From the IMG/VR virus record IMGVR_UViG_3300024273_000466, positions 1 to 24,038 of that record: a DNA stretch of 24,038 nt; one strand, given 5' to 3'. The stretch comes from a virus. Positions 1,371 through 15,873 of this stretch are shown piece by piece. Under the pieces are notes generated by a model that was not told the DNA's origin, ran no database searches, and was given only the letters and a program-made list of their open reading frames with translations. The stretch's first letter is position 1; each line of letters opens with the position of its first letter. The translations under genes were made by a program, and so were the position numbers.

Positions 1371-1685
1371 ATGAAAGCATACAGATTAAAATTTACAGAC
1401 AAAAAGGAAGCTGAAACGGTTTTAATTTCTGAGGAGGTAATTGATAAAGAATTAAACTTTTTAGAAGGAACTTTGGCAGTCGTTTGGATTGGTGCAATAG
1501 TTTTAATTCAGGCAGAAATAAACGAACAAATGGAAATAACAAAAGAAGCGGTTTTCGCTGAAGGTTTCCACGTTGATTTGTTGCTCGAAGACGAAACTAA
1601 AACTTTCGTAAACGAAATATTTCCAAACAGTCCAAATCATAGTTTTGCTGGGATAATAGAGTTTATAGAAGAAATTATCGAGTAA
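1371..1685 (+). CDS. Small acidic hypothetical protein downstream of the tail fibre
   Basis: A 104-residue protein that I do not recognise. It begins MKAYRLKFTDKKEAE, has a hydrophobic strand-like centre (LAVVWIGAIVLIQAE) that is too interrupted to call a membrane helix confidently, and ends in an acidic helix (FIEEIIE). It starts 4 bases after the fibre stop, and its stop codon overlaps the next start as TAATG, so it is probably translationally coupled on both sides. Its position between a fibre and a candidate holin would fit a fibre chaperone or an accessory lysis protein, but nothing in the sequence decides between these. Confidence 0.6.
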   Translation: MKAYRLKFTDKKEAETVLISEEVIDKELNFLEGTLAVVWIGAIVLIQAEINEQMEITKEAVFAEGFHVDLLLEDETKTFVNEIFPNSPNHSFAGIIEFIEEIIE

Positions 1686-2137
1686 TGAAAACAAGTATTT
1701 TCCTCAAATTCTTTGCAGCGTTTTTCACTTCGGTAATAGCTTTTTATGCGCCAATATACGCTACCTTATTAGTGGTGCTTTTGGTTATTACTTCTCGATT
1801 TATTATGGACTTGCTTATAGTAAAAAGATCCAAAAGAAGTAGAGGTACAAAGTGTGAGATGTATAAGGATTCTGGAGAAAATTTCTTTAAGTTTTTGGTT
1901 GCATACCTTGCGATATTGGTTTTGATTTATCCAACAGACATACACTTGTTAGCTTTCTTTGGTTCAAAGCATTTTATTGTAACTAGATTTGCAGCCTTGC
2001 TAATTATCGTGTATGAAGCAATAATTATAAATATGCGATTTAAGATGTTGACTGGAAAAAGCTTGTCGGAACGAGGAATGGAGTCTGTAAAGTTTTTAAT
2101 GAAATTAAAAGAGATCAAAAATAAATTGCAGGAATAG
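1685..2137 (+). CDS. Multi-pass membrane protein, candidate holin
   Basis: A 150-residue membrane protein with hydrophobic segments at about residues 5-22, 24-46, 67-92 and 97-115. A basic loop (KRSKRSRGTK, about 47-56) lies between the second and third, and the tail is a charged helix (about 125-150). A holin makes the inner-membrane lesion that starts lysis. Size, number of helices, basic loop and the MYKDSGENFFKFLVAY stretch recall the phage holin families of Bacteroidota (Phage_holin_4-like), but I see no decisive motif. The start overlaps the previous stop (TAATG). An endolysin and a spanin-like gene lie within 2.5 kb, which supports a lysis role. An unrelated membrane protein, such as a superinfection-exclusion factor, remains possible. 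Confidence 0.5.
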   Translation: MKTSIFLKFFAAFFTSVIAFYAPIYATLLVVLLVITSRFIMDLLIVKRSKRSRGTKCEMYKDSGENFFKFLVAYLAILVLIYPTDIHLLAFFGSKHFIVTRFAALLIIVYEAIIINMRFKMLTGKSLSERGMESVKFLMKLKEIKNKLQE

Positions 2138-2155
2138 AAAATTGTTTTATATTTG
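2126..2155 (+). promoter_or_regulatory. Bacteroidota-type promoter (TTG-N19-TATATTTG)
   Basis: A perfect -7 element TATATTTG (2148-2155, consensus TAnnTTTG) is preceded by TTG at 2126-2128 with a 19-base spacer, the usual geometry of Bacteroidota primary-sigma promoters. It lies across the 3' end of the candidate holin gene. No start codon for a plausible gene follows before the terminator at 2213-2244, so it may make a short untranslated RNA. Confidence 0.5.
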
Positions 2156-2159
2156 CAAT

Positions 2160-2244
2160 ATACTCAAAGTAAGTTAGGTTTATTAGTTATTTGTTTTAAT
2201 GTAGATTTGATTACCCCACAGTAAAATGTGGGGTTTTTCTTTTT
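2160..2244 (+). ncRNA. Possible small RNA between promoter and terminator
   Basis: A promoter-like element ends at 2155, and a strong intrinsic terminator begins 58 bases later and ends at about 2244. Any transcript would be about 80-85 nucleotides long, AT-rich in its 5' part, and capped by a GC-rich terminator hairpin. No open frame of useful length lies inside it. It could be a phage small RNA, or simply a promoter made idle by an upstream operon's terminator. This is inferred from signal order only; no known RNA family is recognised. Confidence 0.3.
2213..2244 (+). terminator. Strong intrinsic terminator
   Basis: A perfect stem pairs CCCCACA (2214-2220) with TGTGGGG (2227-2233), extended by an A-T pair. 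The loop is GTAAAA, and the stem is followed directly by TTTTTCTTTTT. It ends the fibre/holin transcript and any short transcript from the promoter at 2126-2155. Confidence 0.85.
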
Positions 2245-2265
2245 AAAACATTTAATTTAAAACAT

Positions 2266-2273
2266 TATCTTTG
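2266..2273 (+). promoter_or_regulatory. Bacteroidota -7 promoter element TATCTTTG
   Basis: A perfect TAnnTTTG match lies just after the terminator at 2213-2244 and 15 bases before the ATG at 2289. A T-rich stretch at 2241-2244 sits about 21 bases upstream and could act as a weak -33 element. It should drive the fibre-like gene and the two small genes after it, up to the terminator at 3532-3563. Confidence 0.7.
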
Positions 2274-2288
2274 TAAGAAAATAATTAC

Positions 2289-3029
2289 ATGGCAAATATA
2301 CCAGTAACAACAAGGTTCATTGGAATTGCAGATACTGCAAATCTAGTAGAGAAGAAGTCGGCACAAGTTAATGCTGAGACTCAACCATATACAATGCAAG
2401 ATATCATTGATACAGTTCCAGTTAGTCCTGGTATTGTTGAGACAATAGTTCCAGGAACAAACATATCTGTAGACTCAACTGACCCTGCTAATCCAATTGT
2501 TTCAGCTTTAGGAGGTGGTGGAGGAGGAACTAATCCAACAAGCGGATTTATACCAATAAATAATAACGGAACTTTTGTGGATTCTAAAATTCAACAAGGT
2601 ACTTTATATGGATTGCCTACATACGAGTTTAATGGACTTGCAAAAATAAGCGCAGTTCTAAGTGGCAATAATTTTTTGAACCTTGATGCTATGAATGAGT
2701 TTTTTGGCTTTGGTACAAACGTAGGTTTTCCAGGAGGAATACCTTCCGTTGATGTTGGAATGGCTATGACTGGGATGCGAATGGTTATAGGGATGAATAT
2801 GCAGGGCGGAACTGATGGCGTTATAAGAGCAAACGGTAATACGGGCGTTGTGTCTATTGGGGCGTTTGGGACGGAGTACGTTTTAGGGGTGAATCCTTTT
2901 GGCGGTGGCGTTCTCGTCGGGGCTGGGTTTATAGACACAATTCCACCAGCAAATTCAGGGGCTGCAGCGGTTTGGATTAATATTACCAATGAAAACGGCG
3001 TTCAATACAAAGTAGCAGGATACCAATAA
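2289..3029 (+). CDS. Fibre-like virion protein with poly-Gly linker
   Basis: A 246-residue protein, probably a head or tail fibre. Three parts are visible. Residues 1-50 are a polar N-terminal region (MANIPVTTRFIGIADT) that could attach to the virion. Residues 50-80 are a beta-rich stretch with GTNISVDSTDPANPI ending in six glycines, a flexible linker. The rest is a Gly/Met/Phe-rich domain with repeated hydrophobic strands and almost no charge. The phrase 'GFIPINNNGTFVDSKI' resembles linker segments I associate with Bacteroidota phage fibres. From about 2700 to 2930 the coding strand becomes strikingly G/T-rich, unlike neighbouring genes. The gene has its own promoter and terminator-bounded unit. 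No enzyme motif is seen, and the exact virion location is unknown. Confidence 0.6.
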   Translation: MANIPVTTRFIGIADTANLVEKKSAQVNAETQPYTMQDIIDTVPVSPGIVETIVPGTNISVDSTDPANPIVSALGGGGGGTNPTSGFIPINNNGTFVDSKIQQGTLYGLPTYEFNGLAKISAVLSGNNFLNLDAMNEFFGFGTNVGFPGGIPSVDVGMAMTGMRMVIGMNMQGGTDGVIRANGNTGVVSIGAFGTEYVLGVNPFGGGVLVGAGFIDTIPPANSGAAAVWINITNENGVQYKVAGYQ

Positions 3030-3035
3030 AAAAAA

Positions 3036-3063
3036 TAAACTTTAAAAAATAAACTTTAAAAAA
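3036..3063 (+). repeat. 14-base tandem repeat in an A-rich leader (2 copies)
   Basis: The unit TAAACTTTAAAAAA occurs twice in direct succession (3036-3049 and 3050-3063) in the 43-base gap before the ATG at 3073. It is A-rich, like other translation leaders here, and probably arose by slippage. Any effect on translation is speculative. Confidence 0.75.
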
Positions 3064-3072
3064 TAAAAAATT

Positions 3073-3372
3073 ATGGCACTTTTAGTAAGTAATGCAAAAT
3101 TTAAAAATACAGAAATCCTAACGCCTCAAATGTACGTTAGGTTGCAATATGTAGCAATAGCAGACGGATTGAAAACTTCGGTAATGCTAAAATCTGGATT
3201 AACAAAAGAAGCTGTTTCAAGCGGTGAAACAGTAGCTACTGATTTACCTGAAAATTTAATGCTCGAAATGGGAGAACAAAAACAAGATTTAGACGTTATC
3301 CATAACCTTGTTAAGGTAGAATTGGAAGCAAAAGGTTTTGAAGTGGTTATTGACTTACCAACAGCAGAATAA
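3073..3372 (+). CDS. Small hypothetical protein
   Basis: A 99-residue soluble protein that I do not recognise. It begins MALLVSNAKFKNTEIL, contains a mixed strand/helix core (MYVRLQYVAIADGLKTSVML) and ends in a helix plus strand (KVELEAKGFEVVIDLP). It has no Cys, no signal peptide and no membrane segment. It follows an unusual A-rich tandem repeat leader and is separated by a single base from the next small gene, so the two are probably co-translated. The unit ends at a terminator at 3532-3563. It may be a minor virion component associated with the fibre upstream, but only location supports this. Confidence 0.6.
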   Translation: MALLVSNAKFKNTEILTPQMYVRLQYVAIADGLKTSVMLKSGLTKEAVSSGETVATDLPENLMLEMGEQKQDLDVIHNLVKVELEAKGFEVVIDLPTAE

Positions 3373-3373
3373 A

Positions 3374-3499
3374 ATGGAAAAGGATCAAGCCTTACAAATT
3401 ATTGAACAAGCATTGAACGTTGCTACAACAAAGGGTGCGTTTAACCTTGCGGATGTTTCGCAGATTTTAACGGCATTACAAGCGTTGAAACAAGCGTAA
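3374..3499 (+). CDS. 41-residue helical protein
   Basis: A very short gene starting one base after the preceding stop: MEKDQALQIIEQALNVAT, then KGAFNLADVSQILTALQALKQA. Two amphipathic helices are joined by a KGAF turn, with regular Leu/Ile/Ala spacing. I recall very small proteins of this kind in Flavobacterium phages and prophages, but their function is unknown to me. A helix-hairpin self-assembling or adaptor role would fit. The clean start, tight spacing and the terminator after it argue that it is real. Confidence 0.5.
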   Translation: MEKDQALQIIEQALNVATTKGAFNLADVSQILTALQALKQA

Positions 3500-3531
3500 T
3501 CAAAACAAGCGATTTATAGCTATTATAAATA

Positions 3532-4173: not shown

Positions 4174-4677
4174 ATGGATAAGATAACAATTGACAGAATA
4201 AAATTAGCTCACCCAGACATTCGTGAGGAATTACTTAAACAGTATAATGAAGCAAATAATCTTCTTGGAAAAGGAGCTAGGCTTAGATTTGCTCATGTAT
4301 ATCGTTCTCCAGCGGAACAAAATCAGCTTTATTTGAAACGCCCAAAGGTAACAAACGCTAAAGCTTGGCAGTCAATACACAACTATGGGTTGGCTTTTGA
4401 TATTGTCATGCTCTATGATAATGATGGAAATGGAACTTTTGAGGAGGCAAGTTGGTCACAGATTCGAGACTTCGATAAAGACTCAGTAGCAGACTGGAAA
4501 GAGGTAACTACTTACTTTAAGTCTAAGGGATGGGAATGGGGAGGTGACTGGAAGTCATTTAAGGATGCTCCACACTTCCAAAAGACTTTTGGCTATACAT
4601 GGAGAACTCTAAAGGACTTGGTTGACAATGGAACTCATATAATTGATTCTGGCAATAGATATCCAAAAATTAAGTAA
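4174..4677 (+). CDS. Endolysin, M15-family zinc peptidase
   Basis: A 167-residue cell-wall peptidase, likely an L-alanyl-D-glutamate or related endopeptidase that cuts peptidoglycan stems at lysis. The M15 (VanY/Peptidase_M15_4-like) signature is complete. SIHNYGLAFDI supplies zinc ligands His69 and Asp76, the WEWGGDW segment (about 120-126) carries the likely catalytic acid, and PHF supplies His134. YRSPAEQNQLY (43-53) is the usual substrate-side loop. Residues 82-93 (DNDGNGTFEEAS) look like an EF-hand calcium loop inserted after the first zinc motif, as in calcium-responsive phage M15 lysins. There is no signal peptide, so release depends on a holin. It abuts the spanin-like gene with no gap (TAG then ATG). 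The length is normal for a single-domain M15 lysin. Confidence 0.88.
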   Translation: MDKITIDRIKLAHPDIREELLKQYNEANNLLGKGARLRFAHVYRSPAEQNQLYLKRPKVTNAKAWQSIHNYGLAFDIVMLYDNDGNGTFEEASWSQIRDFDKDSVADWKEVTTYFKSKGWEWGGDWKSFKDAPHFQKTFGYTWRTLKDLVDNGTHIIDSGNRYPKIK

Positions 4678-4729: not shown

Positions 4730-4975
4730 ATGGTAAAATTATCAGAACAAGAGTTAGATTCATTTAGAAAATTAGTAAGTGATTTTAATGACACAAAATT
4801 GAAGCTTGGAGATACAGTTATGGCTCAAAGCTCATTGATGAAAGATTTAGATGAATTGAAAAAAGTATACGCTACAGAGGAGGCTTTACTTATTGAAAAA
4901 TATGGAAAGGATTCGGTTATTAATATCCAAACAGGAGAAGTAAGTAATTCTGACTACGTAGAAAAAGAAAAATAA
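4730..4975 (+). CDS. Small helical hypothetical protein
   Basis: An 81-residue soluble, charged protein. Residues 5-60 form a likely coiled-coil helix (LDSFRKLVSDFNDTKLKLGD, then LMKDLDELKKVYATEEALL). A short tail follows with NIQTGEVSN, ending in Lys/Glu. I do not recognise its function. Small coiled-coil proteins with a 'GKDSVINIQTGEV' type tail occur in phages of Bacteroidota, but their role is unknown to me. It follows its own promoter, and a single base separates it from the next start, so it is co-expressed with the C1q-like fibre. Confidence 0.6.
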   Translation: MVKLSEQELDSFRKLVSDFNDTKLKLGDTVMAQSSLMKDLDELKKVYATEEALLIEKYGKDSVINIQTGEVSNSDYVEKEK

Positions 4976-14058: not shown

Positions 14059-14805
14059 ATGAAAGTACAACAAAAAGTGTTAACCGACAAGGTTTACAAA
14101 TTAACAAAGTCTGAAGCTCCTTTATCATTCTTGATTCCAACGAGACACTCAGCACAATTTCCATTATTATATTTTGATGAAGAGTCTGGAACTAACAGAG
14201 CATTACGCTATGCTAGAAACCAAAAATCTCCATTTGAGGATGAGCAAGATGGTAATGCAATCTTAGAGCCAGTTACCTTTGAGGATGGCTTCCTATCTGT
14301 TTCAAGAACTAATCCAGTTCTACAACAATTTCTTTATTATCACCCACTTAATGGAGTTAAATTCATTGAGGTTAATGAAGAGAAAGATGCTTCAGTAGAA
14401 GTTGACAAATTAAATATTGAAGTTGATGCTCTTATCGAAGCAAGACAACTTAGTATTGACCAATTAGAAATGGTATCAAGAGTATTGTTCAATAGAGATG
14501 TGACTAAGATGTCTACAGCTGAATTGAAAAGAGATATCTTGGTATTTGCTAAAAATGATCCACGTACATTCTTGAGTGCCGTAAATGATCCAGCATTGAA
14601 GTTCCAGTCAACTGTTTCTTTGATATTTGAAAAAGGATTCCTTACATTCAGAAAGAGCAACAAGGAAGTGTGGTTTAATATAGATTCAAACAAAACAAAA
14701 ATGCTAAACATTCCATACGGAGAAAATCCAATGGATATTGTTGTGTCATATTTGCAATCAGATAATGGCTTAGAAACCTATAAGATTCTCGAAAACCTCT
14801 TATAG
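14059..14805 (+). CDS. Capsid-neighbour protein, conserved in crAss-like phages
   Basis: A 248-residue protein of unknown function. The N-terminal half is beta-rich with LSFLIPTRHSAQFPLLYFDEES, NRALRYARNQKSPFEDEQDG and a PVLQQFLYYHPLNGVKF segment. Residues about 115-175 are helical (VDALIEARQLSIDQLEMVSRV, then STAELKRDILVFAKNDPRTF). The C-terminal third is mixed (KGFLTFRKSNKEVWFN, IPYGENPMDIVVSYLQ). I associate this sequence type with the gene after the capsid gene in crAss-like phages and would guess an auxiliary capsid or head-completion role. It has no visible promoter and lies between two strong terminators, so it seems to depend on read-through from the capsid unit. Confidence 0.65.
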   Translation: MKVQQKVLTDKVYKLTKSEAPLSFLIPTRHSAQFPLLYFDEESGTNRALRYARNQKSPFEDEQDGNAILEPVTFEDGFLSVSRTNPVLQQFLYYHPLNGVKFIEVNEEKDASVEVDKLNIEVDALIEARQLSIDQLEMVSRVLFNRDVTKMSTAELKRDILVFAKNDPRTFLSAVNDPALKFQSTVSLIFEKGFLTFRKSNKEVWFNIDSNKTKMLNIPYGENPMDIVVSYLQSDNGLETYKILENLL

Positions 14806-14830
14806 TAAGTTGAAAACACTTAAAATACGA

Positions 14831-14864
14831 GACTCAATCTGAAAAATGATTGGGTCTTTTTTTT
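14831..14864 (+). terminator. Strong intrinsic terminator
   Basis: A nine-pair stem with one G-U pair joins GACTCAATC (14831-14839) to GATTGGGTC (14848-14856), followed by eight T residues. A promoter element comes immediately after, so this is a clean operon boundary between head and tail genes. Confidence 0.9.
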
Positions 14865-14867
14865 CGC

Positions 14868-14875
14868 TATCTTTG
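14868..14875 (+). promoter_or_regulatory. Bacteroidota -7 promoter element TATCTTTG (tail operon)
   Basis: A perfect TAnnTTTG match starting four bases after the T-run of the terminator and ending 17 bases before the ATG at 14893. No clear -33 TTG lies at the right distance, since that position falls in the terminator hairpin. It is the only candidate promoter for the 8.4-kb tail operon. Confidence 0.7.
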
Positions 14876-14892
14876 TACAAAATGTTTTATAG

Positions 14893-15873
14893 ATGATTAA
14901 CTCAGTTAGAAATACAGTATTATCTATACTTAATAAAAATAATTACGGATACATATCTCCTTCTGATTTCAATTTATTTGCAAAGCAGTCACAGTTAGAT
15001 TTGTTCGAGACGTATTTTTATCAGTATAACTATCAGATAAATAAAGAGAACGCTAGGCAGTCTGGTGAAGGATATGCTAATATTACTAAGACAATAGAGG
15101 AGTTGATTGATGTTTTTTCTATCACAAGTCCATTAACATTAAGTACACTACAGCCAACAATTAGCAATACATATTATCTTCCATCACCTACAACCACTGG
15201 TGATGACTACTATTTACTGAACAAAGTATTAGTATATTCTGATTTTATTACAAGCGGAGTAACAACAGCCATTGGAGCTGGTCTTGAATTAATAGATTCA
15301 AATGCTACATTCCAAACAAACGGTATTCAAGTTGGAGATGTCATAGGGCTTGTTAGCGGAGGTATTACTCAGTATGTGACTGTTATATCAGTAAACAGTC
15401 AAACGTCAATTACAACGACTGCCAGCATAATAACTTCAACTCCATTTAATGCCATAGGAATATCTTATAGTATATACAATGACAATACAAGTGAGGTAGA
15501 GAAAGTTTCTCATGGAAAGATAACAATGTTAAATAGCTCAAAGTTAACTAAGCCAACATTAGGATATCCTGCTTATACGCAAGAAGCGATCACTCTTACA
15601 GCATTTCCGCCTATAATAAATAACATTGGTCAAGTAGTATCTCAGTACATAAGATACCCAAAAGACCCGAAGTGGACATTCATCTCCTTAACAAATGGAG
15701 AGCCTACGTTTGATCAGTCACAACCCGACTATCAAGATTTTGAATTGCCGTTGGACTGCGAGCCTGACTTGGTGAGTAAAATTTTACAGTATGCAGGTAT
15801 GTCAATACGTGAAGTTAGTGCGGTTCAGTTTGGACAAAGCTTAGAGCAAGCTGATAATCAATCTCAACAATAA
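14893..15873 (+). CDS. Ring/adaptor (head-tail connector) protein, crAss-like
   Basis: A 326-residue protein, likely one of the ring proteins stacked below the portal. The N-terminal helical region (YISPSDFNLFAKQSQLDLFETYFYQYNYQINKENAR, about residues 20-55) is the most characteristic part and matches what I recall from crAss-like and related Bacteroidota podoviruses. Residues about 115-195 form an inserted Ser/Thr-rich beta domain (IQVGDVIGLVSGG, then YVTVISVNSQTSITTTAS). The C-terminal part (LPLDCEPDLVSKILQYAGMSIREV) is helical with a Gln-rich end. It is the first gene of the tail operon, 6 bases from the next. The specific ring number cannot be told from sequence alone. Confidence 0.7.
   Translation: MINSVRNTVLSILNKNNYGYISPSDFNLFAKQSQLDLFETYFYQYNYQINKENARQSGEGYANITKTIEELIDVFSITSPLTLSTLQPTISNTYYLPSPTTTGDDYYLLNKVLVYSDFITSGVTTAIGAGLELIDSNATFQTNGIQVGDVIGLVSGGITQYVTVISVNSQTSITTTASIITSTPFNAIGISYSIYNDNTSEVEKVSHGKITMLNSSKLTKPTLGYPAYTQEAITLTAFPPIINNIGQVVSQYIRYPKDPKWTFISLTNGEPTFDQSQPDYQDFELPLDCEPDLVSKILQYAGMSIREVSAVQFGQSLEQADNQSQQ

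Follow-up and report, generated by a model that had tools for sequence, protein, structure and literature searches.

The account that we favor, with confidence that stands at about even, is that the gene-free stretch at positions 2156–2212 belongs to an ordinary operon boundary that also carries a probably active promoter of host type, from which a terminated RNA of 65–80 nt would arise, most likely as a by-product. The terminator would end the upstream transcript and a second promoter (P2) would open the next one; between them the first promoter (P1, TTG-N19-TATATTTG) would fire into the same terminator and be stopped after 65–80 nt, and it may have been kept or stranded at a boundary where neighboring gene cassettes swap. 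Because its sequence drifts freely, the RNA is most likely incidental and not a dedicated trans-acting regulator, and since it changes as freely as neutral DNA, an ordinary operon boundary is likelier than a new regulatory RNA.

The phage and its late region

The window, by which we mean the whole stretch of DNA that was analyzed, comprises the 24,038 bases of the virus record, and its terminase, portal, and virion proteins resemble those of Flavobacterium/Cellulophaga podoviruses. The host group of this uncultured phage is Bacteroidota, the phage is podovirus-like, and the stretch lies in its late region. Among annotated records the closest is that of an uncultured phage of 60.8 kb, whose terminase is 76% identical; in Elemovirus (host Flavobacterium sp. 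BAL314), the closest group in culture that the searches found, the terminase is 45% identical. A DNA search of isolate phages with positions 1371–3530 returned no match, and the weak AT-rich matches to 2120–2250 (E at least 0.1) were rejected; among the matches listed, those from Flavobacterium lie mostly inside genes annotated as structural or tape-measure. The features of the boundary, all on the + strand, are as follows.

1685..2137, +: upstream gene M, encoding a 150-aa protein with hydrophobic stretches; its 3′ end holds the −33 TTG of P1
2126..2128, +: TTG, the −33 element of P1, inside the upstream open reading frame 1685–2137
2148..2155, +: TATATTTG, the −7 element of P1, 19 bases past the TTG
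2156..2212, +: gene-free spacer of 57 bases; the predicted RNA would start near 2160
2202..2209, +: TAGATTTG, a second −7-like match within the spacer, lacking a −33 TTG; relatives have TATGTTTT at that place
2213–2234, +: intrinsic terminator ACCCCACAGTAAAATGTGGGGT with an 8-bp stem and a T-rich tail to 2244
2266..2273, +: TATCTTTG, the −7 element of P2, which belongs to the following gene; kept in L192/L002 and L003
2289..3029, +: following gene, 246 aa; the N-terminal part of the product (often ~42 aa) is found in 30 other loci

A family match for the product of gene M was sought and none was found; its relatives are 75–83% identical, a profile search returned the same three, and we read the protein as holin-like. 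The product of 2289–3029 is tail-fiber-like in our reading. Its N-terminal part is common to loci L005–L034 while the remainder is usually unmatched, a pattern comparable to modular tail-fiber anchors. The endolysin-like genes of this group also vary: the window has an M15 peptidase (4174–4677), L192 (2554–3141) and L059 have a gene, Y, whose similarity to endolysins is weak (phrog_33083, E 2.9e-5), and L004 has at 882–1346 an endolysin-like gene of another family than either. A close relative (L193, G001 29704–38547) has the gene of a 2947-residue predicted protein toward the end of its late region, a short way before opposite-strand genes.

Terminator and second promoter

The original prediction described a TTG-N19-box, a gene-free gap, a terminator, and a further promoter at 2266, and direct reading of the sequence confirms these coordinates. 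It went on to argue that two promoters with an intervening terminator make little sense for messenger RNA, a view that comparison with related loci does not support. A TAnnTTTG box follows within 80 bases of 32 of 84 distinct terminators where about 6 would be expected, mostly in the form TATCTTTG, and the window itself repeats the layout of terminator, TATCTTTG, and gene at 14829–14893. In L003/L056, with an M protein 75% identical to that of the window, M is followed by this terminator core and by TATCTTTG, and no P1 lies in between. These counts come from 94 loci (the window and its relatives), after removal of duplicate terminators (identical 27-base key) and of any that had a start within 120 bases. 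A terminator followed by a promoter is how the phages of this group begin the next operon; being ordinary, it leaves only P1 in need of explanation. P2 has no −33 TTG 17–23 bases upstream.

The stem-loop of the terminator is the same in L192 and L059, save one outer pair in L059, and L003 has a shorter exact core. The exact 18-base core CCCACAGTAAAATGTGGG occurs in 23 viral stretches (L035–L057), three of which (L038, L046, and L056) are the module of P1, spacer, and terminator or its boundary; most of the 23 adjoin other genes, and the terminator sequence is therefore widely reused.

First promoter-like site

A TTG at −33 with a spacing of about 19 bases is a feature of Flavobacterium promoters, and P1 combines such a TTG with the TAnnTTTG −7 box of Bacteroidota sigma-A promoters, for which a TTG some 19–20 bases upstream is expected. 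TTG-N19-TAnnTTTG gives one match in the whole window against 0.66 expected on both strands, which is not beyond chance; the exact TTG-N19-TATATTTG also occurs a single time, against 0.02 expected per strand. Location carries more weight: intergenic segments of at least 30 nt hold seven TAnnTTTG on the + strand where 0.85 would be expected, a number reached by none of 500 shuffles. The late-strand sites of this box in the window are at 2202, 2266, 3557, 4692, 11407, 14868, and 23260. Across the 94 loci, TTG-N17-23-TAnnTTTG stands 15–110 nt upstream of 7 of the 84 distinct terminators against 0.76 expected (0/300 shuffles), and some of the seven are mutually homologous, so that the independent number is nearer five.

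When the intergenic TAnnTTTG sites of 110 sequences (1.32 Mb) were sorted by the next feature, leaving out duplicates (identical 22-base key) and those close to an end, two kinds of promoter emerged. Those facing a terminator within 130 nt have a TTG at 17–23 in six of seven distinct cases, whereas among 167 late-strand gene promoters it is found at 17–23 in 15 and at 18–21 in 10 (Fisher, 1e-5; 5/6 and 7e-5 with homologues merged). Opposite-strand, putatively early promoters have it at 18–21 in 13 of 34, with N20 commonest and N19 next, and differ from the late ones at 4e-6; “early” and “late” here are classes assigned from gene content and strand, not from expression, and the count leaves out the gene-class sites of L189–L191 (12/213). 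The six-of-seven pattern is stable at stricter terminator thresholds and becomes 7/10 at relaxed settings, with independent terminator-facing units being few, about five. Since TTG is commoner in terminator-facing and opposite-strand promoters than in late gene promoters, P1 looks host-type.

The six units with a TTG are those of the window, L192, L189, L004, L184, and L201, and the terminator lies 30–60 nt from the promoter in six cases. The L004 unit is located after an endolysin gene (phrog_17001, E 2.5e-56), and those of L184 and L201 (the same as L102 and L073) follow, as we read it, the gene of a 250-residue protein homologous to the window gene at 14059. The TTG pattern did not reappear when five isolate phages at a greater distance were compared (1/4 units, late strand 0/3), and we take the pattern as a hint limited to the phage group of the window. 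Late-strand gene promoters in this group are mostly TATCTTTG, generally with no −33 TTG, and an early/late promoter split is possible.

Recurrence beside changing neighbors

The module of P1, spacer, and terminator recurs in a 54-kb contig (L192/L046/L002) and in a 6.6-kb contig (L059/L038). Both have TTG-N19-TATATTTG (the element being at 3145 in L192 and 251 in L059), a spacer of 41–42 bases, and the same terminator core, while the upstream gene is Y instead of M and the downstream gene differs in all three genomes. The TTG sits within a codon of M in the window and within gene Y in L192 and L059. Other loci hold parts of the arrangement: at the end of Y in L189/L165/L166 there is the same −33 element in TTG-N19-TATCTTTG, where TATCTTTG is TATATTTG with one change, but neither its spacer nor its terminator is related to those of the module; L169 has a terminator after Y and lacks a P1-type match; and in L167/L168 what follows Y is a promoter for the gene after it. 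It follows that P1 is not universal and is not bound to one RNA sequence. Past Y and its terminator, L169 also has GTTACA/TGTAAC repeats after 5585, in non-coding-looking DNA.

From TATATTTG to the spacer, homology of the window to its relatives is not clear, so the window P1 may be a chance fusion. We infer from a short similarity that the window TATATTTG may be a remnant of a Y end joined to the end of M, whose own TTG would now be rightly spaced.

The predicted RNA

The original prediction had the first promoter producing a small RNA of about 80 nt. Such a transcript is plausible, as promoter, spacer, and terminator persist together in L192 and L059 beside different genes. The intrinsic terminator would give the RNA a defined 3′ end. 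A functional role as a small RNA finds no support in the comparisons below. The longest open reading frame from the −7 box to the end of the terminator has 5 aa, and no coding peptide lies in the spacer. The predicted RNA is antisense to no gene.

The spacer measures 57 nt in the window and 41 and 42 nt in L192 and L059, and the 5′ part of the predicted RNA differs between the window and its relatives in both length and sequence. Where they align, the window spacer is identical at 28/37 positions to L192 and 29/36 to L059 (76–81%). Fourfold-site identity between the window and L192 ranges over 49–94%, by gene 49% in M, 60% in the 3649–4173 gene, and 68–80% in the majority of late genes; the small gene at 4730–4975 reaches 90% and the capsid gene 94%. 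Other late intergenic comparisons, three against L192 and one before 3649 against L059, are 87–96% identical. The divergence of the spacer is neutral-like, resembling that of synonymous sites; the RNA is not conserved above the neutral rate, and no selection on its sequence is detectable.

Structure gives a similar picture. With its terminator, the window RNA folds better than shuffles (z −3.48), whereas the spacer alone does not (z −0.66 in the window, 0.01 in L046), and the fold signal is therefore that of the terminator. An AU-rich hairpin is possible in the window spacer, with four of its pairs broken in both relatives. Over the three sequences available, covariation did not exceed that of shuffles (160/500) and RNAalifold found no two-sided changes, so that no conserved or covarying structure was detected outside the terminator. 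Pairing of the window spacer with 24 phage start regions was equaled by 185 of 200 shuffled spacers, and for the L192 spacer by 127 of 200.

Rfam gave no match at the gathering threshold in the window, L059, or L004; two sub-threshold matches in 2000–2400 were set aside as chance, a trpB motif (19.2 bits, gathering 59) and an L31 leader (12.8 bits against 33.3). The spacer motif had 15 matches in 84,980 species genomes, none with the terminator of the module after it in the flanks examined, and these were likewise taken as chance. In viral contigs it was found in 10 stretches, two of which are the module (L038 and L046) and eight were rejected; a second spacer 17-mer had a single, unrelated match in L058.

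Alternative explanations

Of the alternatives, we rank a chance motif first, then a dedicated small RNA, a conditional leader, and last a recombination linker. That P1 is no working promoter, the TTG being simply the end of M, TATATTTG a match that arose by chance in AT-rich sequence, and the whole stretch a 3′ untranslated end with its terminator, is possible, if on the unlikely side. The loose motif does not stand out from shuffles in the window, the terminator does without P1 in L003, L169 has a terminator after Y with no P1-type match, and the TTG belongs to a codon of M in the window but to gene Y in L192 and L059; against this stand the excess of TTG-bearing boxes before terminators (7/84, with 0.76 in shuffles) and the recurrence of TTG at 19 with TATATTTG, exactly in L192 and L059 and with a single change in L189. 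A dedicated phage small RNA of 65–80 nt, pairing with messages of the phage or its host, strikes us as unlikely. It would account for a promoter-like site of its own, the lack of an open reading frame, and a strong terminator in three genomes, and the RNA with its terminator folds well, but the spacer by itself folds like its shuffles and diverges like neutral sites, its hairpin is broken in both relatives with neither covariation nor RNAalifold in its favor, its pairing with phage start regions is matched by shuffles, and Rfam offers just the two sub-threshold matches.

A conditional leader like lambda pR′-tR′, in which early firing of a host-type promoter would run into the terminator until a phage factor permitted read-through to tail or lysis genes, is in our judgment very unlikely. 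A host-type promoter does lie shortly before a terminator within the late region, at 30–60 nt in six cases, the downstream genes are late, and PR′-tR′ transcription offers a precedent in giving StxS RNA (PMC7873438); however, the units occupy differing places in the late region, and with a promoter-like P2 of their own the downstream genes would not need read-through. We think it rather improbable that, as a rule for the group, late boundaries, often just after lysis genes, hold host-type promoters that point into a terminator close by, with a short RNA that may vary from phage to phage preceding the late genes and timing late transcription as pR′-tR′ does. That the module is a recombination linker, conserved as a short boundary because it supplies homology for the exchange of flanking cassettes, hardly seems credible: a module of ~100 bp is constant while its upstream (M or Y) and downstream (three types) neighbors change, but a linker would not require a promoter, and the homology upstream at P1 is poor.

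Comparison with known systems

Our searches, which covered mostly literature outside subscription journals, found none on small RNAs of Bacteroidota phages and none on the late promoters of Bacteroidetes phages; three papers that turned up for Flavobacterium phages were unrelated, judged by their titles. Should P1 fire, short terminated transcripts would exist within the late regions of Bacteroidota phages, and the distinction between TTG-less late and TTG-bearing, putatively early promoters would become a testable hypothesis of transcription timing. If P1 is silent, the boundary is a warning that promoter and terminator motifs flanking a short gap in AT-rich phage DNA do not on their own amount to a small RNA gene.

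Promoters of the primary sigma factor of Bacteroidota resemble P1 in having TATATTTG at −7 and a TTG 19 bases upstream, the activity of P1 itself being putative; in Flavobacterium psychrophilum the −7 box of sigma-A is reported to be TAnnTTTG (PMC9723704). The nearest working analogue, in layout only, is the lambdoid PR′-tR′ leader, where a host-type promoter likewise faces a close terminator in the late region, and there yields a short RNA. Transcription and termination of that leader are described as constitutive, and Shiga-toxin phages obtain the small RNA StxS from it (PMC7873438). Unlike there, the next gene here has a promoter of its own and a conserved RNA sequence was not detected. Lambda OOP RNA, given as 77 nt and antisense to cII (PMC12197685), is similar in length, in having a promoter of its own (a predicted one here), and in being phage-encoded, and differs in that the RNA predicted here is not antisense. 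The ordinary operon boundary of these phages shares the same succession of terminator, TATCTTTG, and gene, to which the boundary described here adds an extra promoter-like site before the terminator.
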